A DNA stretch of 64,000 nucleotides from an uncultured Lachnospiraceae bacterium (lineage in GTDB: Bacteria; Bacillota; Clostridia; Lachnospirales; Lachnospiraceae), in assembly GCA_902799015.1 (NCBI GenBank), contig CADBZI010000002.1, forward strand, positions 17,213-81,212, read 5' to 3'. Made by a program: the position numbers and the translations under genes. Positions 23,697 through 42,197 of this stretch are shown in pieces (the stretch's first letter is position 1; each line of letters begins with the position of its first letter). The notes beneath the pieces were generated by a model. The model was not told the origin of the DNA, did no database searches, and was given only the letters and a program-made list of their open reading frames with translations.

Positions 23697-25838
23697 ATGG
23701 ATCGTTATCCGAATAATAGTCCGAAGAGAAGTAAGATTCTGATTGGCAAGTGGATTGGCACCGCGCTTTTGGCAGCGGTGCTGGTGTATTTCTTTCTGAA
23801 TCCGGCGCTCTATCATAAGGTGATAACCGCGGCAGATCCCTCTCAGGGGACGACATCCGTGATGGATTACGGGCAGATCATTGCAACAGTGCTTCTGGCT
23901 GCGCTGGGGATCGCCGCGCTCTGGGCTCCTTGTCCTTTTTCTGCAAAGCAGAAGAAGATTCTGGGACCTGCCGGCTTCCTGCTGACAAGCGGGGTTTGCA
24001 TCTTCGCGCTGGAGTACGCGAACATCTACGTGCATCGTCTGCCCTGGGAGGCAGTTCATTCGATCGGCCTGAAGAAGTTGTTCCTGACTTGGACGGTGGT
24101 GATCCTGATCGCGGCGTGGTTCGCGGTCCTGACGAACCGGTGGCAGCTGTCGTCGGTCCTGACCGCGGCGGTCATCTGCGTATTCGGCGTTGTCTGCTAT
24201 TTCGTCTATGCGCTGAGAGGCGTCGCATTTCTTGCGACAGACCTGACGACGATCCAGACTGCCGCAAATGTGGTGGGCGGTTACGAGTATCATGTGGATT
24301 CCTATACCTTCACGCTGATCCTCTTTACGATCGTCTGGTGCGATGTGATCAAGTGGACCGGCAAGGAGAAGATCTTCCGGACATGGAAGCGGCGGGGGGT
24401 AGCATGCGTGTGCGTGCTTGCGCTGACCATTTTGTCTGACCGCGTCTACCTGCATACGGAAATGCTTCGTCACAGGGGCGTGACGGTGAATACCTTCCGG
24501 CCGGAAAAGAGCTATGGAAACAACGGGGCGATCCTGACGTTCCTGCGCAGCATTCGCCTGATGATCGTGGAAGAGCCGAAGGGCTACAGCGTAGAGCGAG
24601 TGAAGGAGATTGAATCCGCTTATCTTGAAAAGACACCCCGGGAGACGCAGACCTCTGCCACAGAAGCGCTGGGCAGTACGGAAACGGAGTCTTCTGCGGC
24701 CTTGGCGGCAGCCGGGACCGAGTCGGTTCAGCCGAATGTTATCATCGTCATGGACGAGGCCTTCTGCGATATGCAGTCCTGGATGGACTTTGAGACGGAT
24801 CAGGAAGCGTGCCCGTTCTTTGCGAATCTGACCGAGAATACGATCCGCGGGAAGCTGTATGTTTCTTCTTATGGAGGCCGCACTGCGAATACGGAATATG
24901 AGGTTCTGACCGGTGACTCGATGGCATTTTTGCCGCCGGCGTCGACCCCGTATCAGCTTTACATCAAGGATCCTATGCCGAATCTGAACACTGCCCTGAA
25001 GGCGGCAGGCTATCGTCATACGGTTGGCATGCATCCTTACCGGCCTTCCGGCTATAACCGCGCGAAGGTCTATGAACTGTTCGGATTCGATCAGCTGGTG
25101 TTCCTGGATGACTTCCAGGGGGCGGAGACGATCGCTGATAAGGTAACGGATGAGGCGGATGTTGACCGGATCATCGCGGAGTACGAAGAAGCGAAGAGTG
25201 AGAGCGACGCGCCGTTCCTGATCCAGAACGTAACCATGCAGAATCACGCGCCCTATATCGGGAATGCGGATGATCTGGGGGATCCGGTTCATGTGATCAG
25301 CGGGACCGGCAGCTATCCGGACGCGGACGTCTACCTGACAATGATCCATAAGTCAGACCAGGCGCTGGAAAAGCTGGTGCATTACTTTGAACAGACAGAC
25401 GATCCGACCGTGATCATTTTCTTCGGAGATCATCAGCCGAACCTCGACGATTCCTTCTATGAGATGGCGTATGGCAAGACCATGAGTCAGATGGACGGAG
25501 AGGAGCTGATGCAGTTCTACCACTCCAATTATCTGATCTGGGCGAACTACGAGATCGAGGAAAAGGAGATGGACCTGAGCTCCAACTACCTGATTCCGGT
25601 GATGAAGCAGGCGGCAGGCATGGAGCTGACCGGCTATGACAGATTCCTGCTTTCTTTGCATGAGGATCTGCCCATCGTATCGCTGAACGGATATTGGGAC
25701 AAGGACGGCGTCTATTATAAAAAGGCGGAGGACACTTCTTCCCCCTGGTACGACCGGCTGCAGGAGTATAACATGCTGGTGTACAATCATCTGTTTGATA
25801 CGGAGCATCGGACAGACGAGTTTTTTGACGGAGAATAG
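23697..25838 (+). CDS. LtaS/MdoB-like phosphoglycerol transferase (sulfatase fold), paralog 2
   Basis: A 713-residue membrane enzyme with a strong RBS (AAGGGAAAGGG). Five hydrophobic segments span about residues 17-250, then a linker rich in Thr, Glu and Ala, then the catalytic domain from ~345. Key sites are VIIVMDEAF (metal-binding acid), SSYGGRTANTEYEVLTG (nucleophilic Thr) and FFGDHQPN (metal-binding Asp-His). The GGRTANTEYE block is closer to standard LtaS than the paralog at 7924. Expected role: transfer of glycerol phosphate outside the membrane. Three glycerophosphodiesterases follow, suggesting build and turnover of a glycerol-phosphate polymer in one locus. Confidence 0.88.
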   Translation: MDRYPNNSPKRSKILIGKWIGTALLAAVLVYFFLNPALYHKVITAADPSQGTTSVMDYGQIIATVLLAALGIAALWAPCPFSAKQKKILGPAGFLLTSGVCIFALEYANIYVHRLPWEAVHSIGLKKLFLTWTVVILIAAWFAVLTNRWQLSSVLTAAVICVFGVVCYFVYALRGVAFLATDLTTIQTAANVVGGYEYHVDSYTFTLILFTIVWCDVIKWTGKEKIFRTWKRRGVACVCVLALTILSDRVYLHTEMLRHRGVTVNTFRPEKSYGNNGAILTFLRSIRLMIVEEPKGYSVERVKEIESAYLEKTPRETQTSATEALGSTETESSAALAAAGTESVQPNVIIVMDEAFCDMQSWMDFETDQEACPFFANLTENTIRGKLYVSSYGGRTANTEYEVLTGDSMAFLPPASTPYQLYIKDPMPNLNTALKAAGYRHTVGMHPYRPSGYNRAKVYELFGFDQLVFLDDFQGAETIADKVTDEADVDRIIAEYEEAKSESDAPFLIQNVTMQNHAPYIGNADDLGDPVHVISGTGSYPDADVYLTMIHKSDQALEKLVHYFEQTDDPTVIIFFGDHQPNLDDSFYEMAYGKTMSQMDGEELMQFYHSNYLIWANYEIEEKEMDLSSNYLIPVMKQAAGMELTGYDRFLLSLHEDLPIVSLNGYWDKDGVYYKKAEDTSSPWYDRLQEYNMLVYNHLFDTEHRTDEFFDGE

Positions 25839-27558: not shown

Positions 27559-27575
27559 AGGACAGGAGCTTACCA

Positions 27576-28592: not shown

Positions 28593-28624
28593 CAACTTCG
28601 GCAAAAAAGGAGGACAGACAGCAC

Positions 28625-29641
28625 ATGAAGAAACTCAGAAGAACTGTTTTTGCCGGCTTATTTTTATGCCTGCTGATTCTGGCGGGTTCGGTCAGTGTTC
28701 ATGCGGAGATTCATTTTGACCGCGCGAGCGTCAATGTTTTGAAGGGAAAGACCAGAAAGGTCAGGATTTTCTGCAAGGGAAAGTACAGTATTGCAACGAC
28801 CAACAAATCGGTCGCGACGGTTACCCACAGCGGAAAGGTAAAGGGAAAGAGAGCCGGAAACTGCGAGATCGTTGTTACCTGCGGCACGGAGTCTGCGAGG
28901 ATTCCTGTTCATGTGCTGAGATCGCTGCGCGCGGGAGACATTCTTTTCGTCGGACACAGAGGGGATCAGAAAAAGTACCCGGAGAATACCATTCCCTCCT
29001 TCATGGGGGCATTGAATTATGGCGCTGATGGCGTTGAGTTTGATGTTCATCTGACCAATTCCGGAGACCTTCTTGTATTCCATGATCGTTCCCTTTCCAG
29101 AATGTGCGGGAAACCGGGAGACATTCAGGATCTTACAGAAAAGACACGGGCAGATTACCCGGTAACGAAAAACAAAAAGCGTGCCCTGATCCCGACGCTG
29201 GAGGAAACCCTTCGTTATCTGAAAAGCAGGAATGCGGTCGCATTTATCCACTTAAAAAATGCAAGCAGATTCATTGGACGAGGCACAGACCTGGTTGTAC
29301 AATGTATCCGGGCGTGCGGGATGGAAGAACAGAGTGTAGTGTTCAACAGCAGCTATGATGCGATTTTGTATTTCCATACGCATTATCCGGAGATTCAAAG
29401 CGGGTATTGCTATAGCGGCAGTTCTTTGTCCGAAGCACACGCTGCTATGAGGCATGCATCCGACTGCGGAGCATCCTGGTTCTACTTTTTCGATAAGAAT
29501 ATGATCTCCTACAGCAATATCCAGTTTGCGCATCAGTGCGGTCTGAAAGCAGGACTGTATAGGACGAGGAAAAAGAGTGAGATTTTTGCTCTGCTGGACT
29601 ACGGAGCTGACTTCACAATGATGTACCGGAGATTGATATGA
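28625..29641 (+). CDS. Secreted GDPD with N-terminal Ig-like domain, tandem copy B
   Basis: A 338-residue protein starting at ATG 28625 behind AAAAAAGGAGG. It has the same order as copy A: signal peptide ending SVHA, Ig-like domain with VTHSGKVKGKRAG, and GDPD domain with GHRGDQKKYPENT, VEFDVH and FHDRS. Long stretches are identical to copy A, including the C-terminal LLDYGADFT.MYRRLI, so this is a recent tandem duplication. The catalytic blocks are intact, with Phe in place of Leu between the metal-binding Glu and Asp. It overlaps the next gene by 4 bp. Confidence 0.88.
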   Translation: MKKLRRTVFAGLFLCLLILAGSVSVHAEIHFDRASVNVLKGKTRKVRIFCKGKYSIATTNKSVATVTHSGKVKGKRAGNCEIVVTCGTESARIPVHVLRSLRAGDILFVGHRGDQKKYPENTIPSFMGALNYGADGVEFDVHLTNSGDLLVFHDRSLSRMCGKPGDIQDLTEKTRADYPVTKNKKRALIPTLEETLRYLKSRNAVAFIHLKNASRFIGRGTDLVVQCIRACGMEEQSVVFNSSYDAILYFHTHYPEIQSGYCYSGSSLSEAHAAMRHASDCGASWFYFFDKNMISYSNIQFAHQCGLKAGLYRTRKKSEIFALLDYGADFTMMYRRLI

Positions 29642-30531
29642 TGAGGTTCATAAGCAGATTACACAATTCTCTCCCGGCAAGAACTCTCATGTTACTGACG
29701 GTGCTGGTGTGCATGGTTTTGACGCAGGCCACTCCGGCTCAGGCGAAAAAGCATTCCAAGGGCAAAGGGAATACTTACGGCACGAAAGTCATCAGCATTG
29801 AAAGCTTTGCGAAAGAAGCGGACAGCGATTCGTCAGGGACAGACAGCACGAAGCTGGACTGGATGAACGGAACCTGGGTGAACGGCTGTTATGTCAATGA
29901 CCGCGGCGAAGTAATGGCGCGCCTGAGCGACGCGGACCGGGAACCATTTCTTTCGTTCAAAAAGAAGAAAAAGTGTAATATCCTGTTTATCGGGGCTTCC
30001 CAGACAACGAGAACAGCGCAGGCGGTGAAGGATAAAAATGTTTTCTTCTATGGAATGGGCGGAGCTACGTTTGCGTGGTTCTTTGTGGCGGAGCATAAGC
30101 ACAGGGTTTACTATCCCGCCTACCAGGTGATCCGTTCCTTTATCAAGCTTCACCCGCATGGCACTGTGATTATCGATATGGGAGGGAACGACATCCACAA
30201 TGTCGAGGCATATGCAGGTTTCTACCGGGATCTGGTGAATCTGTATCCCCGTGTAAAGTTTTACTTCCGGGGCGTTCCGCCCAGGGATATCGGAGACCCG
30301 AAGAATGGAAAGAGGCTGGAGTTTAACCGTCGGCTGGAAAGCGCGGTACCCGGACATGTGATCAACCTGTTTGAGGAGATCTATACATTCCCGGAATTTG
30401 TGACAGTAGATGGGGCGCACTTTTCGATAGAGGTGACCCGGGGAATTTACCAGCTGACGATGGATGCAATCGGGCGCAAGGTGAAGGTCAATGTAAAAAA
30501 CGGGAAAGTCGGGAAGTCGAAGAAGAAATGA
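29638..30531 (+). CDS. Secreted SGNH-fold hydrolase-like protein, copy A
   Basis: A 297-residue protein with a signal peptide (1-~36, AQA site), a Ser/Asp-rich linker, and an SGNH core. Block I is FIGASQTT with Ser121, block III is DMGGNDIHN (182-185) and block V is VDGAHFS with Asp258 and His261, a full catalytic triad. It ends in a Lys-rich tail. ATG 29638 overlaps the GDPD stop. SGNH proteins in MBOAT loci act as O-acyltransferases or esterases. Placed before an MBOAT gene, it may transfer or remove the acyl group, or be a soluble helper. Confidence 0.82.
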   Translation: MMRFISRLHNSLPARTLMLLTVLVCMVLTQATPAQAKKHSKGKGNTYGTKVISIESFAKEADSDSSGTDSTKLDWMNGTWVNGCYVNDRGEVMARLSDADREPFLSFKKKKKCNILFIGASQTTRTAQAVKDKNVFFYGMGGATFAWFFVAEHKHRVYYPAYQVIRSFIKLHPHGTVIIDMGGNDIHNVEAYAGFYRDLVNLYPRVKFYFRGVPPRDIGDPKNGKRLEFNRRLESAVPGHVINLFEEIYTFPEFVTVDGAHFSIEVTRGIYQLTMDAIGRKVKVNVKNGKVGKSKKK

Positions 30532-30537
30532 ATAATG

Positions 30538-30569
30538 GACAGCGCCTGTGATAATCCGCAGGCGTTGTC
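30538..30569 (+). terminator. 11-bp hairpin between the SGNH paralogs
   Basis: GACAGCGCCTG (30538-30548) pairs along its full length, with one G-T pair, with CAGGCGTTGTC (30559-30569) around a 10-base loop. Only three T residues follow, spread out. It may be a weak terminator, an attenuator or an RNA-processing site within the operon. It sits 7 bp after the stop of copy A. Confidence 0.5.
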
Positions 30570-30719
30570 TGCGTTTCAAGGGTTCACACCTGCCGGAAAT
30601 TATGATAAGATAACCCAAACTGTGCTGATTCGCAGGGGAGAAGCAATCACGAATCAGGCATACGAATCAAAGATAGTCTGGAGTCATTTCAAAGTAAGGG
30701 GCAATAAGGGGTTTGACAC

Positions 30720-31643
30720 ATGAGAAATGAGAACAATCTTGTAATTTCCAAAGGAAAGAAGAGGCGTGCTGTCTGCTGGCGTGTCTGTTTGCTGCTGACG
30801 GTGCTCTGCGTTTTGCTGATGGCTGCACCGGCTATGGCGAAGGGAAAAAAGAAGGCCAATAAGAAACGTGCCGCGTTGCGTGCTGCGTATATCGAGAATG
30901 AGAGAGAGATTCTGGCAACTGATTGGACAGGCGGCTCCTGGGAAGGCACCCGTTATATCAATGCAACGGGAACAGTCTTGGCGGATCTGGTCGAGGAGAA
31001 TCAGGAACCGCTGATCAGAATGAAGGGCCTTGGCAAGAAGAGTATTCTTTACATTGGCGCGTCCCATACTGAGCGGACGAAGCATGCCGTGAAGGATCCG
31101 GACGTCTTCTTCTATGGCTGTCCTTCCGCCTGCTTCCGCTGGTTTTTCTACCCGAGGTTCTATCTCGGAAAGAGGGTGCTTCCTGCTTATCAGGTGATCC
31201 GTGCTTATCTGAAGGCACGTCCTGCCGGAACAGTGATCATCGATATGGGTGGAAATGATCTGGCGAATGCTGATGTTTACATTGGCTTTTACAAGGCGTT
31301 GATCAGACGATATCCCAGAGCGACGTTCTATTTTAAGGTCTGCATGCCGCGTGAGAGTGGCAACAGTACCAATGGAACCCGGATGGAATTCAATAAAAAG
31401 CTTGCCGCCGAGTTCCCGGAACAGACGATTGACCTGTTCGAGAAAATCTATTCTCTTCCCAACTTCATGACCATCGATGGCGCGCATTATGCGAAGCGGC
31501 TGTATCGCAGGATCTATCAGATGACGATGGATGAGATCGGGCGCAAGGTTGTTGTCAATGTGGCAAATGGCAAGGTTACTGTGAAGCAGAAAAGAGGAGC
31601 GGGCAAAGCAGGTTCCAATACTGCGGAGGCCGAAGTAGAGTAA
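30720..31643 (+). CDS. Secreted SGNH-fold hydrolase-like protein, copy B
   Basis: A 307-residue paralog of the upstream gene. A hydrophobic signal segment (~17-40, ending AMA) is followed by a Lys/Arg-rich spacer and the SGNH core. Block I is YIGASHTERT (Ser115), block III is DMGGNDLANAD and block V is IDGAHYA. The shared frame DVFFYG, YQVIR and FYFK shows a tandem duplication older than the GDPD one. The tail is Lys-rich, then acidic. It ends 1 bp before the MBOAT start, so it is very likely co-translated with it. Confidence 0.82.
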   Translation: MRNENNLVISKGKKRRAVCWRVCLLLTVLCVLLMAAPAMAKGKKKANKKRAALRAAYIENEREILATDWTGGSWEGTRYINATGTVLADLVEENQEPLIRMKGLGKKSILYIGASHTERTKHAVKDPDVFFYGCPSACFRWFFYPRFYLGKRVLPAYQVIRAYLKARPAGTVIIDMGGNDLANADVYIGFYKALIRRYPRATFYFKVCMPRESGNSTNGTRMEFNKKLAAEFPEQTIDLFEKIYSLPNFMTIDGAHYAKRLYRRIYQMTMDEIGRKVVVNVANGKVTVKQKRGAGKAGSNTAEAEVE

Positions 31644-31644
31644 T

Positions 31645-33222
31645 ATGACACTTACATCCATACAGTTTCCTCTGTTTTGCCTGCTTCTTACGGTTTTGTA
31701 TTTTCTGGTGCCGGGATCCTGGCAATGGATCCTGCTGCTGGGATTCAGTCTATATTTCTATACGAGGTCGGGGTATCTGGCGCTGGCGTTTTTACTGACG
31801 GCAGCCCTGGCCGCATTTTTGACCGGTCTTTGGATGGAGCGTGAGCTGGAGCGTGCGAAGCTGCAGCTGTTCGAGTGTAAAGATCGCTCTCAGAAGGCAG
31901 CGATCCGGGAAGCATCCGGAAAAAAACGCCGCCATGCCTTTATCCTGATGTGTGTCGTAGTCTTTGGCATCTGGATTGTCACGAAGTACAGCTCCATGAT
32001 CGTGAGTACGATCGCGCCTTTTCTTTCTCCGGCGCAGATGGACGGAGCCATGTCCTTTGTAGACCGGATGATCGTGCCGCTCGGGATCTCGTTCTACACG
32101 TTCAATTGTGCAGGCTATGTGATCGACGTGAGCCGGAAGAAGTATCCGGCCGAGAAGAATCCGCTTCGCCTGCTTCTTTATGTATCCTTCTTCCCGCATA
32201 TTATCCAGGGTCCGTTCAGCCGTTTCGACCGGCTGGGAAAGACGCTCTTTGCCCCGCATAAGTTCGACTGGGACAGAATGTGCAGCGGACTTGGCCGCAT
32301 CCTGTACGGCTACTGTGAGAAAATGCTGGTGGCCGACAAGCTTTCACCCGCGGTCAACGCGGTGCTTGCCGATCCTTCGAAGACGCCGGGCATCTATCTT
32401 CTGGTCGCGATCCTGGGATACGGCATTCAGCTGTACGCGGACTTCTCCGGCTATATGAATATCATGTGCGGCCTCTGCCAGGTGCTGGGAATTGAACTGG
32501 AGGAGAACTTCCGCCAGCCGTATTTTGCGGTATCTATCCAGAATTACTGGAGAAGATGGCACATCACGCTTGGCAACTGGTATACGGACTATGTCTTCTA
32601 TCCGGCTTCCATGGGAAAGACGGCGCAGAAGATCGGCCGCAAGGCGAGAGAGAAGTTCGGCCCGCGTATGGGCAAGCTTCTTCCGAGCTACTTTGCCATG
32701 ATCTTTGTCTGGACCCTGACCGGCCTGTGGCATGGCGCCAGCTGGACCTTTGTCGTGTGGGGATGGCTGAACTTTGTCATCATCGTGTTCAGCATGCAGG
32801 CACAGCCTGCCTATGACTGGACAAAGCAGAAGCTGCATATCAAGGATTCCAATATTCTGTGGAGAATCTTCCAGGTGATCCGCACGATTCTCCTGGTAAG
32901 CCTGCTCAGAATCTTCTACTGCAGCCCGTCGGTGGGAGCGGCGATCAACTATATCCGTATGATGTTCACACCGAACTGGAGCCTGCTCGTGACAGCGCCG
33001 AAGAAGGTCATGCTGACTTCGCTCGCGCAGAGCGGCATTGCGCTGAAGTACATCCTTGCCGGTACATTTGCCATCTTTATTGTGGATCTCGTGAAGGAAA
33101 ATGAGAAGAAAATCCGCATCCCGATGCCTGTCCGCATGGTTTTCTGGGGGCTTCTGTTCTGCGTTCTGATCATCGGAATGGAGAGAGGCTCTACGGGAGG
33201 ATTCATGTATGCGCAGTACTGA
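31645..33222 (+). CDS. MBOAT-family membrane O-acyltransferase (AlgI/DltB-like)
   Basis: A 525-residue polytopic protein with about 11 membrane segments. The family blocks are present: SFYTFNCAGYVIDV, FFPHIIQGPFSRF, NYWRRWHITLGNWYTDYVFYP and LTGLWHGASW, whose His363 is the invariant MBOAT catalytic His. Size fits AlgI better than the ~400-residue DltB. An MBOAT moves an acyl group from a cytoplasmic donor (a carrier-protein thioester in Dlt) through the membrane to an outer SGNH partner. Here the flanking SGNH genes, ligase and carrier protein make a complete set. It overlaps the next gene by 14 bp. Confidence 0.92.
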   Translation: MTLTSIQFPLFCLLLTVLYFLVPGSWQWILLLGFSLYFYTRSGYLALAFLLTAALAAFLTGLWMERELERAKLQLFECKDRSQKAAIREASGKKRRHAFILMCVVVFGIWIVTKYSSMIVSTIAPFLSPAQMDGAMSFVDRMIVPLGISFYTFNCAGYVIDVSRKKYPAEKNPLRLLLYVSFFPHIIQGPFSRFDRLGKTLFAPHKFDWDRMCSGLGRILYGYCEKMLVADKLSPAVNAVLADPSKTPGIYLLVAILGYGIQLYADFSGYMNIMCGLCQVLGIELEENFRQPYFAVSIQNYWRRWHITLGNWYTDYVFYPASMGKTAQKIGRKAREKFGPRMGKLLPSYFAMIFVWTLTGLWHGASWTFVVWGWLNFVIIVFSMQAQPAYDWTKQKLHIKDSNILWRIFQVIRTILLVSLLRIFYCSPSVGAAINYIRMMFTPNWSLLVTAPKKVMLTSLAQSGIALKYILAGTFAIFIVDLVKENEKKIRIPMPVRMVFWGLLFCVLIIGMERGSTGGFMYAQY

Positions 33223-34660
33223 TAAGAAGATCATCCGCCGTGTGATTGCAGTCGGAATTCTGATCGCGGTGATCCTTTGCATGAATCATGTTGCGGTGCT
33301 GAGCTTTGACAGAGTCCGGAACGCGGATTATTTCAACTATGATATGGAGCAGCTGGAGAAGCAGCACGCGGATGTTGACCTGATGATCGTCGGCGCTTCT
33401 CAGGTGTATCACGGTTGCAATCCGGATGTGATCTCTGCCGAAATGGGCATCCATGAGGTAGTGGAGTGTGCATCGGCCGCGTCTCACAATGACGGCATGT
33501 ATTATATGCTGAAGGATCTGCTGGGGAGGTTTACGCCGAAGTGCGTCGTGATTGACTTGACCTGGTCGAAATTCATGGATAAAAATGTGCCGGTTCTCAG
33601 CATGGCAAAGCTTTTGAGCGCGGACAGAATGTCGTGGCCGAGGAAGCTCGAGTACGCGGCACATAATTTCAACCTGGATGAATGGATGAAATTGTTGTTC
33701 CCCATGTACCGGTACGGCGGCTCTGTGTGGGGATTCAGCCAGCTGAAGGCGAATTATTTCGCCCGCAAAGCGGTTCGGGCAGGAAACTGGGTGGATGAGT
33801 CCAAGCGTCGCTACAGGAAAAATGGATTTACCTGGGTCAATGCCGGCTGCCCGCAGGGAAGCATTCCTTCCGAGGTGGTCTCCTATTCAAATGACCTTGT
33901 CAGCTCATACGAAACCGACTACATGAAAAAGCTGTGGAAGTTGTGTGATGAGAAGGGCGTTCAGGTGATCTGGTGTACGCTGCCGACTTCGATGGTAGAA
34001 CTATACGGAATTCAGAACTATCAGGATTCTCCGGATTACATGAAGGCGTTTGCGGAAGAGCTGGGATGCACCTACCTGAACTTCAACCTTCTGAAGGGCA
34101 GGGAAGCATTTCTGCCGGATACCTGTTTCTCGGATAAGGTACATCTGAACGGAACGGGATCCGTGGCGTTTTCCAAAGTGTTTGCGCAGGCGGTTAAGAA
34201 GGTCCTGGATGGGGAAGATCCGTCCGGCATGTTCTACGAGAACATAGACGAGATGAAAAAGAATGTACACCGGATTGTTGGCTGCAACGGAATGGTGAAT
34301 CCTGTCGGGAACGGCACTCTGTCCGTAACGGTGACGAGTCTGCAGAATGAGGATATCACGCCGGAATACCGGCTCGTGCTGATGGAGAAAGGGAAAAAGA
34401 AAAAAGCCCGGAAAAACAACGACGTAAGCGGCAGCGGCGCGGGAGATGCGGATGCAGATGAGGATGTCGGCACAGATGCGGGAGCGGAGAATTATCCCGA
34501 GGTCCGCCCCTGGCAGGAAGAGACGGCCTTTTCTGTGGAGGAATCCGAGGTTCCTGACGGATATGCCCTGCGGGTTGAGGTCCGGCAGAAAGGGAAGCGT
34601 GACATGGAAGCTTTCCAGGATGAGCTGGGGAGTACCTATAAGATCAAAATGGGAGACTGA
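33209..34660 (+). CDS. DltD-like membrane-anchored SGNH protein, copy A
   Basis: A 483-residue protein; GGGAGG lies eight bases before ATG 33209. One N-terminal membrane helix (~10-27) anchors an outer SGNH-like domain. IVGASQVYHGCNPDVI gives the candidate nucleophile Ser64, and SDKVHLNGTG gives the Asp and His of the triad. A C-terminal module follows, split by an acidic Gly/Ala/Asp linker (~410-430) and closed by PWQEETAFSVEESE and EVRQKGKRD. Architecture and place right after an MBOAT match DltD, AlgX and related partners. It would pass the acyl group to the polymer. Confidence 0.82.
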   Translation: MRSTDKKIIRRVIAVGILIAVILCMNHVAVLSFDRVRNADYFNYDMEQLEKQHADVDLMIVGASQVYHGCNPDVISAEMGIHEVVECASAASHNDGMYYMLKDLLGRFTPKCVVIDLTWSKFMDKNVPVLSMAKLLSADRMSWPRKLEYAAHNFNLDEWMKLLFPMYRYGGSVWGFSQLKANYFARKAVRAGNWVDESKRRYRKNGFTWVNAGCPQGSIPSEVVSYSNDLVSSYETDYMKKLWKLCDEKGVQVIWCTLPTSMVELYGIQNYQDSPDYMKAFAEELGCTYLNFNLLKGREAFLPDTCFSDKVHLNGTGSVAFSKVFAQAVKKVLDGEDPSGMFYENIDEMKKNVHRIVGCNGMVNPVGNGTLSVTVTSLQNEDITPEYRLVLMEKGKKKKARKNNDVSGSGAGDADADEDVGTDAGAENYPEVRPWQEETAFSVEESEVPDGYALRVEVRQKGKRDMEAFQDELGSTYKIKMGD

Positions 34661-34713
34661 CGGGAGAGAAAGATCGTCAGAAAATCACTGAAACACTCTG
34701 TATGAGCTAAAAT

Positions 34714-36231
34714 ATGGATACAAATGGAAAAAGATCCCGGAAATACCTGTTCCGCGTGATCGGTGTCGGAATTCTTCTGGCAACGATTCTCGGCGTCAAT
34801 TATATTGCTTCGCTGTGCTTCGGCCAGGTTCGCGTTGCGGATTACTACAAATATGATCTGAACCGTCTTCAGCAGGAGAACACAGCTGTAGATCTGGTCA
34901 TTGTGGGTGCCTCCCATGTTTATTCAGGGTGCAACCCGGATGTGATCTCTGAAGAGATGGGGATCGGTGAGGTGATCGACTGTTCTTTCGCGGTGGGATA
35001 CGCCGATGGCGAGTACTATATGCTGAAGGATACGCTGAACCGGTTCACCCCGAAGTATGTCGTGATTGATCTGCCATGGCACAGATTCCAGGAGAACCGT
35101 GATCCGGCCGCAAAGCTGGGAAAGTATCTGAGCACGGACCGGATGGAATGGCGGGGCAGGCTGGACTATGCGCTTCATTGCTTTGACTTTGTGGACTGGG
35201 TCAACCTGCTGTGCCCGATGTATCGGTATGGGGATTCTGTCTGGGGATTCGGCCAGCTGAAACGGAATTATACATCCCGCAAGGCGGTGGAAGCAGGACA
35301 TTGGGCAGAAGAATCAAAGCGTGCCTACCGGAAGAACGGATATCTCTGGAGTGCGAGAAGCTGTCCGCAGGGAAGCATTCCGGTGCAGGAAAGCAGTTAT
35401 TCCCAGGATCGCTTCAGCGAATACAATGTTCGGTATGTGCGGAAGATGTGCAAGCTGTGTCAGGAGAAGGGGATTCCCGTTGTTCTGGTAACGATCCCTA
35501 CAACCCTGGAAGATATTTACGGTACCGAGAACTATCAGGCATCTCCGGATTACATGGAATCCTTTGCCGAAGAACTCGGGTGTCCTTACCTGAACTTCAA
35601 CCTGCTCAGAGACCGGGAGGAGATCTTTCCGGATCCGATGTTCAAGGACCGGCTTCATCTGAGCGGGGAAGGCTCGGTGATCTTCTCAAGGATTTTCGCC
35701 GGAGCTGTTCAGATGGCGCTGAACGGCGAGAATACAGACGACCTGTTCTACAAGAATGTTGAGGAGCTGCAGAAGGATGTCCACCGGATCGTCGCGAGCA
35801 ACGGGCGTGCGGTTCCGGATGGAAACGGAACGCTCACTGTGGAGGCGAAGAGCCTGCAGAATGAGGATGTCACGCCTGAGTATCGGCTGGTGCTGATCGA
35901 TGCAAAAGAGGCAGCCGCGGGAGCAGCCCCGGCAGGCTCGGACGAAGAAGGCAGCGATGCGGCTGATGGCGCCGGAGCGGAAGATGCCGGCGTGGAAGGA
36001 GCAGTTGGCAGCGCTGCGGAAGATGACAGCAGTGCAGCAGATGCGGCACCGGAATCTCAGGATGGCCAGGAGATCCGGCCGTGGCAGGAGGAGACGACTT
36101 TCACGGTCAGCGAATCCGAGATTCCCAAAGGATACGTTCTGCGGCTCGAGGTCCGGCAGAAGGGACAGACAGAAGCAGAAGCCTACACGAATGGACTGAC
36201 GGAAGAGTTTCAGATTTCCAAGGACATGTGA
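34714..36231 (+). CDS. DltD-like membrane-anchored SGNH protein, copy B
   Basis: A 505-residue paralog of the preceding gene with the same order: membrane helix (~12-34), IVGASHVYSGCNPDVI with Ser67, and KDRLHLSGEG with the triad Asp and His. The acidic linker is much longer (about residues 392-448, Ala/Gly/Glu/Asp only) before the conserved IRPWQEETTFTVSESE module. The RBS is weak, which may lower its level or indicate coupling. Two adjacent DltD-like proteins behind one MBOAT are unusual and may give two acceptors or two sites of action. Confidence 0.82.
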   Translation: MDTNGKRSRKYLFRVIGVGILLATILGVNYIASLCFGQVRVADYYKYDLNRLQQENTAVDLVIVGASHVYSGCNPDVISEEMGIGEVIDCSFAVGYADGEYYMLKDTLNRFTPKYVVIDLPWHRFQENRDPAAKLGKYLSTDRMEWRGRLDYALHCFDFVDWVNLLCPMYRYGDSVWGFGQLKRNYTSRKAVEAGHWAEESKRAYRKNGYLWSARSCPQGSIPVQESSYSQDRFSEYNVRYVRKMCKLCQEKGIPVVLVTIPTTLEDIYGTENYQASPDYMESFAEELGCPYLNFNLLRDREEIFPDPMFKDRLHLSGEGSVIFSRIFAGAVQMALNGENTDDLFYKNVEELQKDVHRIVASNGRAVPDGNGTLTVEAKSLQNEDVTPEYRLVLIDAKEAAAGAAPAGSDEEGSDAADGAGAEDAGVEGAVGSAAEDDSSAADAAPESQDGQEIRPWQEETTFTVSESEIPKGYVLRLEVRQKGQTEAEAYTNGLTEEFQISKDM

Positions 36232-36257
36232 TCTTTTATTTAGACAGTAAGGTGTGA

Positions 36258-37838
36258 ATGATGGATGAAGTAAAGTATCAGGCGCGTTCTCTCGCGGAGG
36301 CGGTTTACCGCTATTCGGTTCTGATACCGGAGAGGAACGCGATCGTTGACAAGCAGGGTCCGCATACCTTTGCGCAGCTGTGGGAGGAGATCGCGCAGTG
36401 CGCGGAGGTGCTGAAGGAACTGGGGGTGAAAAAGGGCGACAGGGTTGTGATGGAGTGCTCTCAGGACGCTCTGTTCCTGTCCGTGAATCTGTCCTGCCAG
36501 CTGCTGGAGGCGATCTTTGTGGGCGTTGAGCGGAGAGTTGCCCGCGGCCGCCTGGAGGATATCGTCCGCCAGACGGAGCCGGCGCTTTTGCTGACAGCGA
36601 AGGCAGTGGAGCAGCCGGAAGACGCAAAGGAAGCATTCTACCGCAGGAATCTGACGGTCAAGGAATTCGCGCAGCTTCTTAAGAAGCAGCGGGAGAATCA
36701 AGTATCCGGACAGTCTGAAATGGCTGGTTCCGGCCTCCCGGAACCGTGTCTTCAGTCCGCAGTCAAGGCAGTGGAGCACCTTGACCGGGAAACGGTCTCC
36801 GAGATTCTCTTCTCAACCGGGACGACCGGCAAGACGAAGGGCGCTATCCTCACCAACCGGGCCAATGTCGCGAACGCGCAGAATATCATCGACGGTGTCT
36901 GCATGGAGCAGGACGCGGTGGAGCTGGTTCCGCTTCCGATCAATCATGCGCACGGACTGAGAACCTCTTATGCACATCTTCTGAACGGCAGCTGCGTGCT
37001 GATCGTGAACGGGATTACATTTCCGCGTGTCGTCTTTGACACGATGGCGAAGTATGGAGCAAACGCAATTGATCTGTCGCCGAGTGCGGCGCAGATGCTG
37101 ATGAATACCTCCGCAGACAGGCTGAAGGAAATCTCCCACACCATCCGATATGTGGAGGTGGGGGCGGCATTTCTGCCTGAGTCTACCAAGCAGCAGCTGA
37201 AAGAATGCTTCCCGACATCAAGGCTGTATAACTGCTATGGCTCTTCCGAGTCCGGCAGAACATGCAACCTGGAATTCAGTACGGACCAGGATATGCCCGG
37301 CTGTATCGGCCTGCCGGTGCCGAACGCAGCCTTTGCCGTGATCGGGAAGGACGGGAAGCCGATTCAGTCAGACGCGGAGCATACGGGACTTCTCGCTTCT
37401 GCGGGTCCCATGAACATGTCGGGCTACTGGAGAGAGCCTGAGCTGAGCGCGCAGACATTGAAGGACGGCTATGTCCTGACAGCGGATCTTTCTTACATCG
37501 ATGAGAATGGATATATCTATGTGCTTGGAAGACAGGACGACGTGATCGTCTACAAGGGCATCAAGATCTCTCCGGAGGAGATAGAAGAGGTGGCTGCCGG
37601 GTGTGAGATGGTTGCCGACTGCGCATGTATTCCGGAAGAGGATGAGATGGCCGGACAGGTGCCGAAACTCTTTGTTGTCCCGAAGGATCCGGAAGCTTAT
37701 AATGAGGCGGAGCTGTTCGCCTACCTGAAGGAGCACATCGATGACAACCGGATGCCGCGGACCATCGAGCGGATCGGGGAGATTCCAAGGACCTACAACG
37801 GGAAGATCCTTCGGAAAAAGCTGGCGGCAAGGACATAA
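36258..37838 (+). CDS. Adenylate-forming acyl ligase (ANL superfamily) of the acylation cluster
   Basis: A 526-residue ligase; the start could be ATG 36258 or 36261, with AAGGTG just upstream. The AMP-binding P-loop is STGTTGKTKG at 186-195, YGSSES at 327-332 is the A5 motif, ADLSYIDENGY and GRQDDVIVYKG are the A7 and A8 motifs, and NGKILRKKL holds the catalytic Lys. The region PLPINHAHG (225-233) matches the PLFHxxG block of acyl-CoA ligases, where DltA has an FDxSvxD segment whose Asp holds the D-Ala amine. It should load an acyl group onto the adjacent carrier protein. Substrate unknown; probably not an amino acid. Confidence 0.87.
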   Translation: MMDEVKYQARSLAEAVYRYSVLIPERNAIVDKQGPHTFAQLWEEIAQCAEVLKELGVKKGDRVVMECSQDALFLSVNLSCQLLEAIFVGVERRVARGRLEDIVRQTEPALLLTAKAVEQPEDAKEAFYRRNLTVKEFAQLLKKQRENQVSGQSEMAGSGLPEPCLQSAVKAVEHLDRETVSEILFSTGTTGKTKGAILTNRANVANAQNIIDGVCMEQDAVELVPLPINHAHGLRTSYAHLLNGSCVLIVNGITFPRVVFDTMAKYGANAIDLSPSAAQMLMNTSADRLKEISHTIRYVEVGAAFLPESTKQQLKECFPTSRLYNCYGSSESGRTCNLEFSTDQDMPGCIGLPVPNAAFAVIGKDGKPIQSDAEHTGLLASAGPMNMSGYWREPELSAQTLKDGYVLTADLSYIDENGYIYVLGRQDDVIVYKGIKISPEEIEEVAAGCEMVADCACIPEEDEMAGQVPKLFVVPKDPEAYNEAELFAYLKEHIDDNRMPRTIERIGEIPRTYNGKILRKKLAART

Positions 37839-37906
37839 AAGGCAGAAAAGACTGATCGGTTCCGTGATTGACAATGCCGGAACACGGGGAAAGAAAGGGA
37901 AAAGAA

Positions 37907-38152
37907 ATGGGAAATGACAGTGACAGAGAGCAGTTGATAGAGATCCTGAACAGTGTTCGTCCGGATGTGGACTTTGAGGCGGAGGACGCATTGATCGACG
38001 ACGAGATCCTCTCCTCCTTTGACATCATCGCGATGGTGAGTGAGATCAATGTTCAGTACGGCATTGAGATCCGGGTAGACGATCTGCTTCCGGAGAATTT
38101 TAATTCCGTGGACGCAATCCTGGAGCTGATCGAGCGCATGGAGAACGAATAA
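37907..38152 (+). CDS. Acyl carrier protein (DltC/ACP type)
   Basis: An 81-residue acidic protein starting at ATG 37907 with AAGGGAAAAG upstream. The start at 37868 would add a basic leader without an RBS. The phosphopantetheine site lies in EILSSFDIIAMV, with Ser37 in SSF taking the place of DSL or the DSF/DSM of DltC. The helical pattern and the final NSVDAILELIERM match carrier proteins. Coming 69 bp after the ligase, it is that enzyme's likely acceptor and the cytoplasmic donor for the MBOAT. It is the last gene before a strong terminator. Confidence 0.9.
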   Translation: MGNDSDREQLIEILNSVRPDVDFEAEDALIDDEILSSFDIIAMVSEINVQYGIEIRVDDLLPENFNSVDAILELIERMENE

Positions 38153-38194
38153 GACGCGAAGAACGGACCGCGCGGGAAACAATAACAGGAAGGG

Positions 38195-38226
38195 ACCGCA
38201 GACAGCATCCTGCTGCCTGCGGTTTT
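38195..38226 (+). terminator. Rho-independent terminator closing the acylation cluster
   Basis: ACCGCAG and CTGCGGT (38195-38201, 38217-38223) enclose an inner stem CAGCA/TGCTG, and the hairpin runs straight into TTTT. It separates the carrier-protein gene from the LysR gene, so the acylation genes form the end of one transcription unit. Confidence 0.82.
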
Positions 38227-38248
38227 GCATGTGTGCTTTCTGCTCATG

Positions 38249-38277
38249 TTGACACGCGTGCAGACGGGTGTTAGAAT
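38249..38277 (+). promoter_or_regulatory. Strong sigma-A promoter for the LysR regulator and transporter
   Basis: A perfect -35 TTGACA (38249-38254), 17-bp spacer and -10 TAGAAT (38272-38277). It lies between the terminator and the LysR start at 38341, and probably drives the regulator together with the importer genes behind it. Confidence 0.82.
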
Positions 38278-38340
38278 GCGGAAGATAAAACTTATAGAAA
38301 TATAAGCAATCACTAATGGTTGGCACAGATTGGACTTTCT

Positions 38341-39342
38341 ATGACAGATGAAAGTATCAATTGCATAAGAACCGTATTGCAGGAAAAAAGCTTTTCCAGG
38401 GCAGCGAAGAAGCTGTCGGTTTCACAGCCTGCGATTTCCCTCCAGATCAAGAAGGTGGAGAAGGAGCTGGACATTACGATCTTTGACCGGAAGTCTCATC
38501 CTCTGAGCCTGACCCAGGAAGGGGAGACACTGCTGGAATACCTGAACCAGAGAGACCTTCTGGAAAAGGATTTCCGCGAGCGGCTTCGTTCTCTGAGCAG
38601 CCTGGAGCGGGGAACCCTGCGGATCGGCGGAACCAGCGCATTTAACCTGGCGTTTGTGCCGGATATGGTATCGAGGTTTTCCGAGCTTTACCCGGGCGTG
38701 GATATCAAGGTGATGGATGGCACGATCGCGCAGCTTCGCAGAGAGCTCCTTGACGGGAATCTGGATCTGTCGATCCTGTCTCCGACGCAGATGCGGAGTG
38801 GTCTTCATCTTGAGCCGCTGAAGGAGACAAAGATCTACTACTGTCTGCCGCCGCACATCAAGCTGTCACCGGAGCTTGCCGGGCTGGAGATTCCCTTTGA
38901 CCGGATCGACGCGCCGGGTGAGGACCCGGAGGCAACCCTGCCGATGTTCCGGGATCTTGCACAAGCCAATGGATGGGATCCGGTAAGAGGCCTTCCGGTG
39001 ATCCGGCTCTCGCCGGAGCGGAATCTGGGCCAGATGCTGGATGCGCTGCTGGACCGGGATCAGGTGGAGGAACGGATTCCTGTCATGGTAGACCAGGCGC
39101 TGACCGCCTACATCATGACGCTGAAGGGAGTCGGAACCTGCCTGATGAGCGGTCTTGATATCCGAAGCTTCCCGGTGAAAGAGCATCCGCACTGCTTCAT
39201 GCTGAGCAATCTGATCTGCCGGCGCATGATGTACCTGGCGTGGAAAGAAGGAGCAGTGCTTTCTCCGGCAGCAAAGGCTTATGTCAATCTGCTTAGAGAG
39301 AGTCTGCGGGAGGAAATGCACCGGGCAAAGAATCCCGGTTGA
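38341..39342 (+). CDS. LysR-family transcriptional regulator
   Basis: A 333-residue protein from ATG 38341; a TTG at 38320 could add seven residues, and neither start has a strong RBS. The N-terminal winged helix has SFSRAAKKLSVSQPAISLQIKKVEKEL, the signature of LysR DNA-binding domains, followed by a periplasmic-binding-type effector domain (~90-300) starting GTLRIGGTSAFN. It is 38 bp before the importer permease on the same strand, which is unusual because LysR genes often point away from their targets. It probably senses the imported compound. Confidence 0.88.
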   Translation: MTDESINCIRTVLQEKSFSRAAKKLSVSQPAISLQIKKVEKELDITIFDRKSHPLSLTQEGETLLEYLNQRDLLEKDFRERLRSLSSLERGTLRIGGTSAFNLAFVPDMVSRFSELYPGVDIKVMDGTIAQLRRELLDGNLDLSILSPTQMRSGLHLEPLKETKIYYCLPPHIKLSPELAGLEIPFDRIDAPGEDPEATLPMFRDLAQANGWDPVRGLPVIRLSPERNLGQMLDALLDRDQVEERIPVMVDQALTAYIMTLKGVGTCLMSGLDIRSFPVKEHPHCFMLSNLICRRMMYLAWKEGAVLSPAAKAYVNLLRESLREEMHRAKNPG

Positions 39343-39380
39343 GAGAATTGCGGAAGGAAAGAAAAGGAAGGTTTCCGGAA

Positions 39381-40193
39381 ATGGAATTAGAAGACAAAAA
39401 GGAGCGGCGGCGCGCCCTGATCACAAAGATTGTTTTCATTGTGGCAGTGCTGGCGCTGTGGGAGATTCTTGCGAAGGCGCATATCTTCGGAAAACGGTCG
39501 GAGCTGGTGTTCCCGCCGCTGGAGACGATCGGCGCCGCGTTCATTAAAAATTTCGACACCGGTTACGCGGGAACGAGTCTCTGGGTTTATATCCTGAACT
39601 CGATGCTGCTGCTGGTTGAGGGACTTGCCATCGGAATCGTGATTGCATTTCTCTTCTCCGGACTGAGCATGATCAGCAAGACCGTCGATACCATCTTTAA
39701 CCTGTGCGTATCGATCTTTGATCTGCTTCCCGGCGTGGCATTGCTGCCGGTCGTGATCGTGATCTTCGGCGTGAAGCCGGGCGTCATCGTGTTCCTGGTG
39801 GTACACGCGGTCCTCTGGCCGATGGCCAGAAATGTGCTGGATGGCTTCAAAGCGGTCCCGGAGATCTATGTGGAAGGCGGACGGAACCTTGGCATGAGCA
39901 GTACGCAGATGCTGACGGGCATCTATGTTCCTGCTTCCGCGACCTATATCATCTCCGGACTGAAGGTCGGCTGGGCGAGAGCGTGGAGAGGCCTGCTGAG
40001 CGCGGAGATGATCTTCGGCATCGCGTCCAGCCCGGGAATCGGCATGTACATCAATCAGATGCGTACGAACCTGAATAACGCGGAAATGTACGCAACGCTG
40101 ATCGTAATTATCATCATCGGCCTGGTGGTGCAGTATGGTATTCTGGAACCCATCGAGCGCGCAACCGTGAAGAAATGGGGGATGACGAAATGA
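39381..40193 (+). CDS. ABC importer permease, SsuC/TauC type
   Basis: A 270-residue protein starting at ATG 39381 with AAGGAAGG upstream. It has six membrane segments and the BPD_transp_1 coupling motif in EGGRNLGMSSTQMLTGIYVPAS (EAA-type loop). The family imports nitrate, sulfonate, taurine, thiamine-precursor and similar compounds. The ATPase gene overlaps its stop by 4 bp. The substrate is not readable. Confidence 0.9.
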   Translation: MELEDKKERRRALITKIVFIVAVLALWEILAKAHIFGKRSELVFPPLETIGAAFIKNFDTGYAGTSLWVYILNSMLLLVEGLAIGIVIAFLFSGLSMISKTVDTIFNLCVSIFDLLPGVALLPVVIVIFGVKPGVIVFLVVHAVLWPMARNVLDGFKAVPEIYVEGGRNLGMSSTQMLTGIYVPASATYIISGLKVGWARAWRGLLSAEMIFGIASSPGIGMYINQMRTNLNNAEMYATLIVIIIIGLVVQYGILEPIERATVKKWGMTK

Positions 40194-40948
40194 GTGAAAC
40201 CGTACTGGAGGTCAGGAATCTGTCGAAGTCCTTTTTGAATTCCGGCGGAAAAGATACGAATGATGTCCTCAATGATCTGAGCCTGTCGGTCGAGAGAAAG
40301 GAATTCCTGTGCATTCTGGGTCCTTCCGGCTGCGGAAAGACAACCCTGCTGCGGTGCGTGGCGGGATTCGAGACCTATACGGGGGAGATCCTGACAGAGG
40401 GCAGAGTGAACCATGGACCGGGTACAGACCGGATTATGGTATTTCAGGATTTCAACCAGCTGTTCCCGTGGAAAAGCGTGGAGAAAAACATTCAGTACGC
40501 GCTGAAGATGCAGGGAATCAAGGACAAGGCGCTTCTGAAGAAGAAGTCGGACGAGGCGCTTCACAAGGTTAAGCTGGATGGCTATCAGAACTACTATCCG
40601 TATCAGCTGAGCGGCGGCATGAAGCAAAGAGTCGCCATCGCGAAAGCATTTGCCCTGAAACCGGGCATTATCCTGATGGACGAGCCCTTCGCGGCGCTGG
40701 ATGCCATGACGAGAAACCGTCTGCAGAAGAAGCTGCTTGAGCTTCATGATGAGGAGGGCTGCACGATTCTTTTCATCACGCACAACATTCTGGAAGCGAT
40801 CTCGCTTGGAACACGGGTCATTGTACTGCAGAACGGCGGAAAGATCGTGGTGGATGAGAAGAATCCGATCCCGCGTCCGGTCACGCCGGACTCTCCGGGA
40901 TACGGTGCGTTCTGGACGAAGCTGCACGATGCGCTGTATGTGGAGTGA
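40190..40948 (+). CDS. ABC importer ATPase, SsuB/TauB type
   Basis: A 252-residue ATPase from ATG 40190. Walker A is GPSGCGKTT, the Q-loop is MVFQDFNQLFPW, the signature is LSGGMKQR and Walker B is IILMDEPFAALD, followed by the H-loop ITHNILEA. The VFQDxxLxPW-like Q-loop is typical of nitrate/sulfonate-type transporters. It is coupled to the permease gene. No regulatory domain is attached. Confidence 0.92.
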   Translation: MSETVLEVRNLSKSFLNSGGKDTNDVLNDLSLSVERKEFLCILGPSGCGKTTLLRCVAGFETYTGEILTEGRVNHGPGTDRIMVFQDFNQLFPWKSVEKNIQYALKMQGIKDKALLKKKSDEALHKVKLDGYQNYYPYQLSGGMKQRVAIAKAFALKPGIILMDEPFAALDAMTRNRLQKKLLELHDEEGCTILFITHNILEAISLGTRVIVLQNGGKIVVDEKNPIPRPVTPDSPGYGAFWTKLHDALYVE

Positions 40949-41102
40949 GGCAGGAAAGCAGGTATAGCGCAGCCAGGAACAGACAGACGCGCAGAATTAC
41001 GGAATCAGCCTGAGACCGGCTCCGGACACCCGGCCGACAGGATTGATCATATAAAAAATGGCAGATTGCCAGGATATCAGTGATTCAGAAAGGGGATTAG
41101 AC

Positions 41103-42077
41103 ATGAAGAAATCAATTAAGATGCTGACTTCTGCTGCCCTTGCTGCGGCGATGACCGCGACAATGGCTGTCAGTGCATTCGCCGACGGAGCGGAACTGAA
41201 TATTACGTATCAGTACGGACTGGCTTATACACCGGCTGTGATCGCCATGGATCAGGGTCTGATCGAGGCTGCCTACAAGGAAGCGACCGGGGAAGACCTG
41301 ACTGTCAACTGGACGCAGATGAACAATGGTTCCGACATCAACACTGCCTTTGCGGCCGGTGAGATCGATGCAGGCTTCCTGGCACTCGGTCCGATCGTTT
41401 CAGGTGTTTCGAAGGGAATCGGCTACAAGATCTTCTCCAACAGCTCAGGACAGCCGCACGCGCTGATGACCAATGATCCGGATGTCAAGGAACTCAAGGA
41501 CCTGATCGGTACGGATAAGCAGATCGCGCTTGTCACGATTGGCTCTCTGCACCATGTCCTGCTGGCGATGGCGCTGGACGAGGCCGGCGAGGACCCGCAC
41601 GCGCTGGACGCCAACCTGATCGGCATGAAGCATCCGGACGGCATGGCTGCTCTGGAAAATGGACAGATCGCCGCGCATCTGACTTCCAGCCCGTACATCC
41701 AGATGGAGCGCAAGAACGAGGAGCTGCATGAGGTCGGAGATATGTCCGCTGTCTGGTCTGCGGAGAATTCTTATATCGTCGGCGTTGCTTCCGAGGAGCT
41801 GCACGACGAGAAACCGGAGATCTATCAGGCACTGTGCGACGGCATCAAGGCTGCGATGGATTACATCAACGAGAATCCGGAAGAGACGGCAGAGTTCACA
41901 GCTGAGCTGGACGGCAATACCGTCGAGGATGAGCTGGAGTATCTGAAGGACGGCAACTATCATCCGGAAGTGAAGGGCATCGGCCGCTTCGCGAAGTTCA
42001 TGGAGGAAGCGGAATTCCTCGATGGCGAGGCTCCGGCGTTTGAGGATATGGTATTTGACAACGTCGTCGGAGATTGA
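41103..42077 (+). CDS. ABC importer substrate-binding protein, NMT1/SsuA-like, without lipobox
   Basis: A 324-residue secreted protein from ATG 41103, with GAAAGGGG upstream. The signal peptide ends SAFADG and has no Cys, so it is not a standard lipoprotein, although Gram-positive binding proteins usually are. The mature part begins with ITYQYGLAYTPAVIAMDQGLI, as in NMT1/SsuA-type proteins, and a TAFAAGEIDAGFLALGP block follows. It belongs with the permease and ATPase just upstream. How it stays at the cell without a lipid anchor is unclear. Substrate unknown. Confidence 0.87.
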   Translation: MKKSIKMLTSAALAAAMTATMAVSAFADGAELNITYQYGLAYTPAVIAMDQGLIEAAYKEATGEDLTVNWTQMNNGSDINTAFAAGEIDAGFLALGPIVSGVSKGIGYKIFSNSSGQPHALMTNDPDVKELKDLIGTDKQIALVTIGSLHHVLLAMALDEAGEDPHALDANLIGMKHPDGMAALENGQIAAHLTSSPYIQMERKNEELHEVGDMSAVWSAENSYIVGVASEELHDEKPEIYQALCDGIKAAMDYINENPEETAEFTAELDGNTVEDELEYLKDGNYHPEVKGIGRFAKFMEEAEFLDGEAPAFEDMVFDNVVGD

Positions 42078-42116
42078 GAGAATAGAAACAGCTGACATCG
42101 GCGAGAATTGACAGTA

Positions 42117-42147
42117 CAGGGAATGTCGGATGATCCGGCATTCCCTG
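42117..42147 (+). terminator. 15-bp inverted repeat downstream of the importer
   Basis: CAGGGAATGTCGGAT and ATCCGGCATTCCCTG are inverted copies with one T-G wobble, separated by a single base, so a real hairpin would open a few inner pairs. No T-tract follows. It probably ends or slows transcription between the importer and the CDP-glycerol transferase gene, though a protein-binding palindrome is possible. Confidence 0.5.
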
Positions 42148-42197
42148 AGTGTGCATTAAAAGAGCGCCGAAAGACAGACAGATCTGAGAGGAGAAAT

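Follow-up and report, generated by a model that had tools for sequence, protein, structure and literature searches.

A putative Dlt-like acylation locus of an uncultured Lachnospiraceae bacterium with a ligase outside DltA and a predicted shuttle peptide on its MBOAT

MBOAT/SGNH acylation pathways have been described in two layouts. In Dlt, the pathway is fed by a carrier protein and the shuttle peptide lies on a separate protein, DltX; in the other pathways of this kind the peptide is fused to the MBOAT, there is no carrier protein and the donor is evidently acyl-coenzyme A (acyl-CoA) (PMC12148441, 2025, in the parts drawn on here). The same parts report that the C-terminal hexapeptide of PatA carries the acyl group as acyl-tyrosine, and the Discussion names Dlt, with D-alanine, as the only carrier-fed MBOAT/SGNH pathway. 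DltA, the ligase of Dlt, has Asp197 among the residues holding the D-Ala amine, while Cys268 selects the enantiomer (PMC8972799, in the part drawn on here). The present work concerns a run of seven open frames, all on the + strand, at 29638-38152 of a 64-kb stretch of DNA (the window) from an uncultured Lachnospiraceae bacterium. The source is a draft assembly of 2.64 Mb in 168 contigs, 85% complete. In order, the run encodes secreted SGNH proteins 1 and 2, an MBOAT, membrane SGNH proteins 1 and 2, an ANL ligase and a carrier protein. A preliminary description of the DNA had listed these parts, and an open reading frame (ORF) check at the coordinates it gave, Pfam, motifs and fold matches bear the list out.

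That description had called the locus Dlt-like, with a ligase that is not DltA and a donor that is not D-alanine; the sequence comparisons below support this. We propose, at about even chances, that the locus performs carrier-fed, Dlt-like surface O-acylation in which an imported acid other than D-alanine is esterified to the neighbouring teichoic-type polymer.

The window locus and Dlt have in common an ATP-dependent ligase, a carrier, an MBOAT, a teichoic-type gene setting and, by fold matches of low TM, a DltD-like SGNH protein. The window locus differs in that its ligase falls outside DltA and lacks the DltA amine pocket, in that its peptide is fused to a longer MBOAT whereas Dlt uses the DltX microprotein, and in having two membrane and two secreted SGNH proteins with importer genes alongside. 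PatAB, AlgIJX, WssHI and PatA1B1 resemble the window locus in that their MBOAT is of the larger kind and has an FxYxx(F/Y) peptide at its C-terminus, and in their separate SGNH protein; unlike the window locus, with its ligase and carrier, they are described without a carrier (PMC12148441, in the parts cited above). A plain AlgI/PatA-type acetylation locus was ruled out, since ligase and carrier are part of the locus. The exosortase A-associated AMP-forming ligase TIGR03098 is also an ANL enzyme of an envelope-related system; it is the third-best NCBIfam match of the window ligase, at 190 bits far under the 592-bit cut-off. The butirosin set BtrI/BtrJ/BtrK differs in that the window ligase has neither an amine pocket nor a decarboxylase to partner it.

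The features of an MBOAT-SGNH system are present in the window: an MBOAT domain with WHG, a tail hexapeptide and SGNH partners in the operon. The locus appears to combine known MBOAT-SGNH acylation parts in a combination not found described; the part of the open-licence literature that was searched yielded no recognised description of an MBOAT locus that has a carrier and a ligase other than DltA. If this is true, the locus would unite the two described layouts, carrier with DltX and acyl-CoA with fused tail, and a second carrier-fed branch with another acid would broaden the chemistry of teichoic-type polymers. A scavenged surface acid would also tie habitat chemistry to envelope charge.

The ligase and its substrate pocket

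The window ligase matches Pfam PF00501 (1.5e-55) and AMP-binding_C. The conserved ANL motifs T187-K194, G424-R425 and K516 are present, which we take to be the P-loop, the A8 hinge and the catalytic Lys. Against the DltA model TIGR01734 it scores 106 bits (cut-off 560). Its best family is PRK06187, the general acyl-CoA ligases, at a sub-cut-off 286 bits, and it resembles solved acyl/aryl-CoA ligases, with 4-coumarate, feruloyl and succinylbenzoate CoA ligases among the best. Its closest named relatives are on contigs of metagenome-assembled genomes from uncultured bacteria, either Lachnospiraceae or Clostridia.

A maximum-likelihood tree of 62 rows was built from adenylation domains only, with eight duplicate loci and a partial ligase from contig C101 dropped. 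A clade of 25 ligases including that of the window has support 100/99; together with two other acyl ligases it is split 100/100 from 35 DltA, DltA-like and nonribosomal peptide synthetase (NRPS) rows. The tree proposed as a check in the preliminary description thus came out against a grouping with DltA. Just two other acyl ligases are included, on long branches flagged by the program, so the tree does not give the position of the clade within the wider ANL family.

The segment PLPINHAHG, on which the claim of a different donor had rested, occupies residues 225-233. Ala231 and Gly302 align with Asp197 and Cys268 of DltA, and the Asp that binds the D-Ala amine is absent, as had been claimed. All seven amino-acid-type comparators have Phe-Asp at 230-231. 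H230 and R235 are each kept in 25/25 of the clade ligases in the tree set. A wider alignment of 43 ligases, the window's included, omits L031 (a 155-aa fragment) and L032 (score below 350); it has R235 in 42/43, H230 in 41/43 and Asp at 231 in 0/43. The two other acyl-ligase comparators have the His and lack the Arg. Profile (hidden Markov model) alignment to an NRPS adenylation domain places R235 four residues past the amine-binding Asp, presumably pocket position 239 of the NRPS position code. Tree, pocket and cut-off scores together support a ligase outside DltA. From the residues that line it, we infer a pocket that would suit an acid without an alpha-amine and with an anionic or polar far end.

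MBOAT, carrier and SGNH proteins, and coexistence with Dlt

The window MBOAT matches Pfam PF03062 (5.5e-12) and, over residues 115-420 of 525, the DltB model TIGR04091 with 133.7 bits (cut-off 375). At 525 aa it is AlgI-sized, as previously noted. Its WHG is presumably the active-site His motif. The protein ends in the hexapeptide FMYAQY, with Tyr as the last residue. To the preliminary description can be added that, judged by this motif, the DltX-like shuttle peptide is on the MBOAT's own C-terminus. The pattern F.Y..[FYW] closes the MBOAT in 28 of the 29 fetched ligase loci that have an MBOAT match besides the window; the remaining one is truncated at the end of its contig. A pattern search of the 64-kb window, with the rest of the genome not searched, gave no plausible DltX-like frame: the other two shuttle-pattern matches are a 15-codon frame and an antisense 62-codon frame.

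The carrier scores 18.6 bits with Pfam PF00550, just below the 20.8 cut-off, and 21.3 bits with the DltC model NF003464 (cut-off 68). Its serine site reads SSFD. Translation likely begins at the ATG at 37907, giving 81 aa as in the relative L025, and not at the TTG at 37868 of the mechanical ORF. Across 42 fetched ligase loci, which include near-identical pairs (L038/L085) and stretches cut by contig ends, an MBOAT is found in 29, on the ligase strand, and a carrier in 32.

A GAS nucleophile motif and a D-x-x-H block occur in all four SGNH proteins; the secreted pair has G-x-N-D in addition. Identity is 46% within the secreted pair and 54% within the membrane pair. Their predicted secretion or membrane anchoring is based on one N-terminal hydrophobic segment in each. 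The sole Pfam hit on the four is a sub-cut-off Lipase_GDSL_2 match in membrane SGNH protein 2, and an NCBIfam search gave no DltD match among the window proteins. For the AlphaFold model of membrane SGNH protein 1 (pLDDT, predicted local distance difference test, 78), the eight best Foldseek hits are DltD, with a best E of 7e-6 and a TM of ~0.30. This protein is the proposed acyl transferase. The model of secreted SGNH protein 1 (pLDDT 74, from a three-row alignment) finds SGNH esterases, best E 8e-6; the protein is esterase-like and perhaps removes the acyl group.

A class-wide draw placed the ligase profile (E <= 1e-100) in 2/245 genomes, the source genome itself and G217, from another family. 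G217 has a dlt-type operon with a DltA of 549 bits (just below the 560 cut-off), a tailless 395-aa MBOAT, a carrier-like protein, a protein of 420 aa in the DltD position and a DltX-like 75-aa protein ending FTYAEF. Its second locus encodes a carrier, a window-type ligase, an MBOAT with FVYRNF as its last residues and, in the SGNH position, a protein of 381 aa; a home-made teichoic-transferase profile has three matches there. Because G217 holds both, the window-type system and Dlt are not mutual substitutes. The preliminary description had called for a search for another dlt operon in the source genome. DltA-like ligase loci do exist on two other contigs, C31 and C101; in this 85%-complete assembly no match lies above the DltA cut-off.

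Importers, acceptor and alternative readings

In a survey of 397 genomes of the family the ligase was matched 35 times, in 31 of them, and the surroundings of all 35 matches were fetched; profiles for the binding protein, permease and polymerase were seeded without the window's own sequence. An ATP-binding cassette (ABC) binding protein of the window's type is near the ligase in 8/35 (G000, G176:C3, G027, G081, G436, G504, G388:C41, G517), and a DASS symporter in 5/35 (G143, G033, G125, G177, G442). The close relatives L024 and L025 have the ABC importer. The remaining matches comprise 3 with SDR genes, 11 long ligases without an importer and 8 with none of these. One genome with a weak SDR match (G098, L177) was counted as SDR-free. 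The long ligases were grouped by length, 665-703 aa; Pfam, applied to one of them (L044), finds a nitroreductase domain there. Nine of the 13 importer genes lie within 1 to 104 bases of the ligase on the same strand.

An importer of either kind accompanies 13/16 matches that score 600 bits or more, are unfused and lack SDR genes, against 0/11 long ones (Fisher 3e-5, with subgroups chosen post hoc and, as in the other Fisher test here, no correction for kinship or grouping). In the 18 matches fetched after the importer idea arose, an importer is present in five, which are all five of the close, unfused ones. Genome-wide, the ABC binding protein (E <= 1e-60) occurs in 14/397 genomes, 13 of which have the ligase (Fisher 3e-15, uncorrected). 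The best DASS tier, at least 581 bits, comprises six genomes, all with the ligase, although the tier was set post hoc and the query came from a ligase locus; weaker DASS matches occur in 12 genomes, one with the ligase.

Going by family names, the SsuA/TauA type would carry sulfonates, and DASS dicarboxylates, citrate or sulfate. Taken with the pocket Arg, they suggest a dianionic acid as the donor. The preliminary description had proposed a plain or hydroxy acid in place of D-alanine. The second half of that proposal is supported; a plain or hydroxy acid is possible, but ranks behind an imported acid with a second charge, since the pocket has an Arg and importers often accompany the ligase.

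CDP-glycerol-type polymerase genes flank the locus on both sides in the window, and in L025, L027, L028, L029 and L031 a homologue of the downstream polymerase comes after the carrier gene or after the importer. Because such genes adjoin the locus in the window and in five relatives, the neighbouring teichoic-type polymer is a plausible acceptor, as had been suggested. Neighbourhoods differ at other ligase loci, for example L168 with a NeuB gene.

From gene content, motifs, ligase phylogeny, linkage and co-occurrence we infer the following sequence of reactions. Uptake of the acid would be by the adjoining Ssu/Tau-type ABC importer or, in some relatives, by a DASS symporter. The ligase would adenylate a small carboxylic acid that lacks an alpha-amine and is probably dianionic (a dicarboxylate or sulfonated acid), and load it on the carrier protein. 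The MBOAT would then move the acyl group across the membrane to the tyrosine of its own C-terminal FMYAQY, from which the DltD-like membrane SGNH protein would take it to esterify the neighbouring teichoic-type polymer. The secreted SGNH proteins would probably trim or edit the ester.

Several observations weigh against this proposal. In 22/35 family matches the surroundings of the ligase show no importer. The close relatives L027, L028 and L031 show none nearby and have the polymerase gene directly after the carrier, and none was found in the fetched stretch of the second G217 locus. In 5/13 ligase-bearing genomes the binding protein is found only away from the ligase, and six genomes, including the source genome with its second copy, hold one apart from it. 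The window importer lies past the candidate terminator with a promoter-like site to itself and may therefore have a different role. A dicarboxylate cargo is uncertain because the DASS protein has PN in its first motif in place of the SN of VcINDY. R235 is equally constant in the long and SDR-linked subgroups, which have no importer, and so may be structural or bind another group. The top total score of the ligase is to a two-domain NRPS (332 bits), although the best single domain there reaches 190 bits and a fatty-acid ligase 244. The TM of the DltD-like match is low. Finally, neither MBOAT nor carrier is seen in 8/42 fetched ligase stretches, and L168 has ligase, carrier, importer and a NeuB gene with no MBOAT in the fetched stretch; for these reasons the clade does not always serve O-acylation.

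A narrower form of the proposal is possible but doubtful. A scavenged anionic acid, a sulfonated carboxylate or dicarboxylate, would be placed on wall teichoic polymer by a Dlt-type carrier and a Pat-type MBOAT, adding negative charge where Dlt adds positive, in a system that can coexist with true Dlt.

The same machinery could instead transfer a plain short acid made in the cell, the importers being unrelated neighbours. Bacteria of this kind produce acetate, butyrate, lactate and 3-hydroxybutyrate; the best ligase score, to PRK06187, and the likeness to solved acyl/aryl-CoA ligases fit such a donor, as do the family matches without an importer in the fetched stretch. An Arg in the specificity pocket would be odd for a plain acyl chain, and the importers are linked to the ligase and co-occur with it across genomes. 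We consider this alternative unlikely, if not markedly so. An environmental aromatic acid of the phenylpropionate, hydroxycinnamate or phthalate type is improbable. It would explain why 4-coumarate, feruloyl and succinylbenzoate CoA ligases rank high among the solved relatives, and the binding-protein superfamily includes aromatic-acid importers, but the Arg is constant, and the DASS symporter that replaces the ABC importer in some relatives is a better fit to small anions. More improbable again is that ligase and carrier feed N-acylation of cytoplasmic sugars and not the MBOAT. The L168 arrangement beside NeuB would suit it, as would L163, which has ligase and importer with no MBOAT or carrier match in the fetched stretch; against it stand the MBOAT near the ligase in most loci and the full shuttle motif on the window MBOAT. 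A Dlt system that transfers D-alanine by way of a diverged ligase would explain the same list of parts beside teichoic-type genes and the weak matches of MBOAT and carrier to DltB and DltC, but it is very improbable and was rejected on the ligase tree, the pocket residues (Asp and Cys missing) and the dlt-type operon beside the window-type system in G217, with scores under the DltA, DltB and DltC cut-offs, no DltD match and no DltX-like frame in the window.

Gene setting and related loci

Features of the locus and its surroundings are collected in Table 1. The preliminary description had the run closed by a terminator. Folding of 38188-38234 does give a hairpin (-21.1 kcal/mol, z -2.3, with 4/200 shuffles equally good), but its U tract is four U, in part paired in the predicted fold, and a consensus terminator scan listed no + strand terminator behind the carrier gene. 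The hairpin is a candidate terminator, not of the textbook type.

Table 1. Positions of features in and around the acylation locus (window coordinates)
Feature	Coordinates	Strand	Basis
CDP-glycerol glycerophosphotransferase homologue (teichoic-type polymer)	22360..23667	+	profile match
Membrane sulfatase-family protein, perhaps LtaS-like	23697..25838	+	Pfam Sulfatase
Secreted SGNH protein 1; GAS, GGND, DGAH blocks	29638..30531	+	motifs, N-terminal hydrophobic segment, model
Secreted SGNH protein 2	30720..31643	+	paralogue of secreted SGNH protein 1, motifs
MBOAT, 525 aa, WHG motif, C-terminal FMYAQY	31645..33222	+	Pfam, motifs
Membrane-anchored SGNH protein 1; Ser64, D309-x-x-H312	33209..34660	+	motifs, Foldseek
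Membrane-anchored SGNH protein 2	34714..36231	+	paralogue of membrane SGNH protein 1
ANL ligase; H230, R235, Ala231, Gly302	36258..37838	+	Pfam, tree, alignments
Carrier protein, 81 aa	37907..38152	+	likely ATG start; Pfam
Candidate intrinsic terminator hairpin, four-T tract	38192..38226	+	folding
Promoter-like site TTGACA-17-TAGAAT, 11/12; precedes LysR/importer unit	38249..38277	+	consensus match alone
LysR-type regulator	38320..39342	+	Pfam match
ABC importer permease, Ssu/Tau/Ntr type	39339..40193	+	profile matches
ABC importer ATPase	40175..40948	+	profile matches
ABC importer binding protein, SsuA/TauA-like (NMT1_2)	41058..42077	+	profile matches
CDP-glycerol-type poly(polyol phosphate) polymerase homologue	42108..43523	+	best NCBIfam match TarL, under cut-off

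Directly upstream of the run, 25902-29641 encodes three GDPD-family proteins, two with Big_2 matches, one of them sub-cut-off; these perhaps trim glycerophosphate polymers. Further upstream, a single 682-aa frame at 19997-22045 joins an ABC ATPase to a UDP-galactopyranose mutase domain and adjoins an ABC-2 permease gene.

Importer copies distant from the ligase form units of their own, in several cases together with a LysR gene, and the genes around them (L181-L187; L186-L188 in part) give no hint of the donor. The source genome has such a second Ssu/Tau-type binding protein on contig C36 (L186), near 8985-10100, which is 52-54% identical and lies away from the acylation locus. In G201 (L028), ABC and DASS importers are both elsewhere in the genome.

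Sister ligases form two further subgroups. Those of 665-703 aa with an extra C-terminal part (L044, L046, L047, L097, L169-L175) have an MBOAT nearby in 10/11, and their architecture suggests that the carrier-bound acyl group is oxidised or reduced. In L043, L045 and L164, SDR genes lie beside a sister ligase and a carrier; an importer was not found in the fetched stretches. A tailored donor, hinted at by these SDR genes and by the nitroreductase-type long ligases, was set aside: it concerns the sister subgroups only and is of no help for the window.

On contig C31, L033 144-5936 is a second Dlt-like locus of the source genome, whose DltA-like ligase has FDFDVSVKD; it also encodes a decarboxylase, a carrier, an MBOAT whose last residues are PIYAEF and, in the SGNH position, one further protein. 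The solved relatives of the decarboxylase include BtrK (86 bits, fourth in the list). The carrier chemistry of butirosin BtrI/BtrJ/BtrK bears on this locus, not on the window operon, and the C31 locus perhaps attaches a decarboxylated amino acid such as γ-aminobutyrate to the surface. In L089, L094, L095 and L098 a ligase, a decarboxylase, a carrier and an MBOAT are combined in a similar way. The third DltA-like ligase, at L034 2043-3068 on contig C101, is partial and lies at the end of this short contig.

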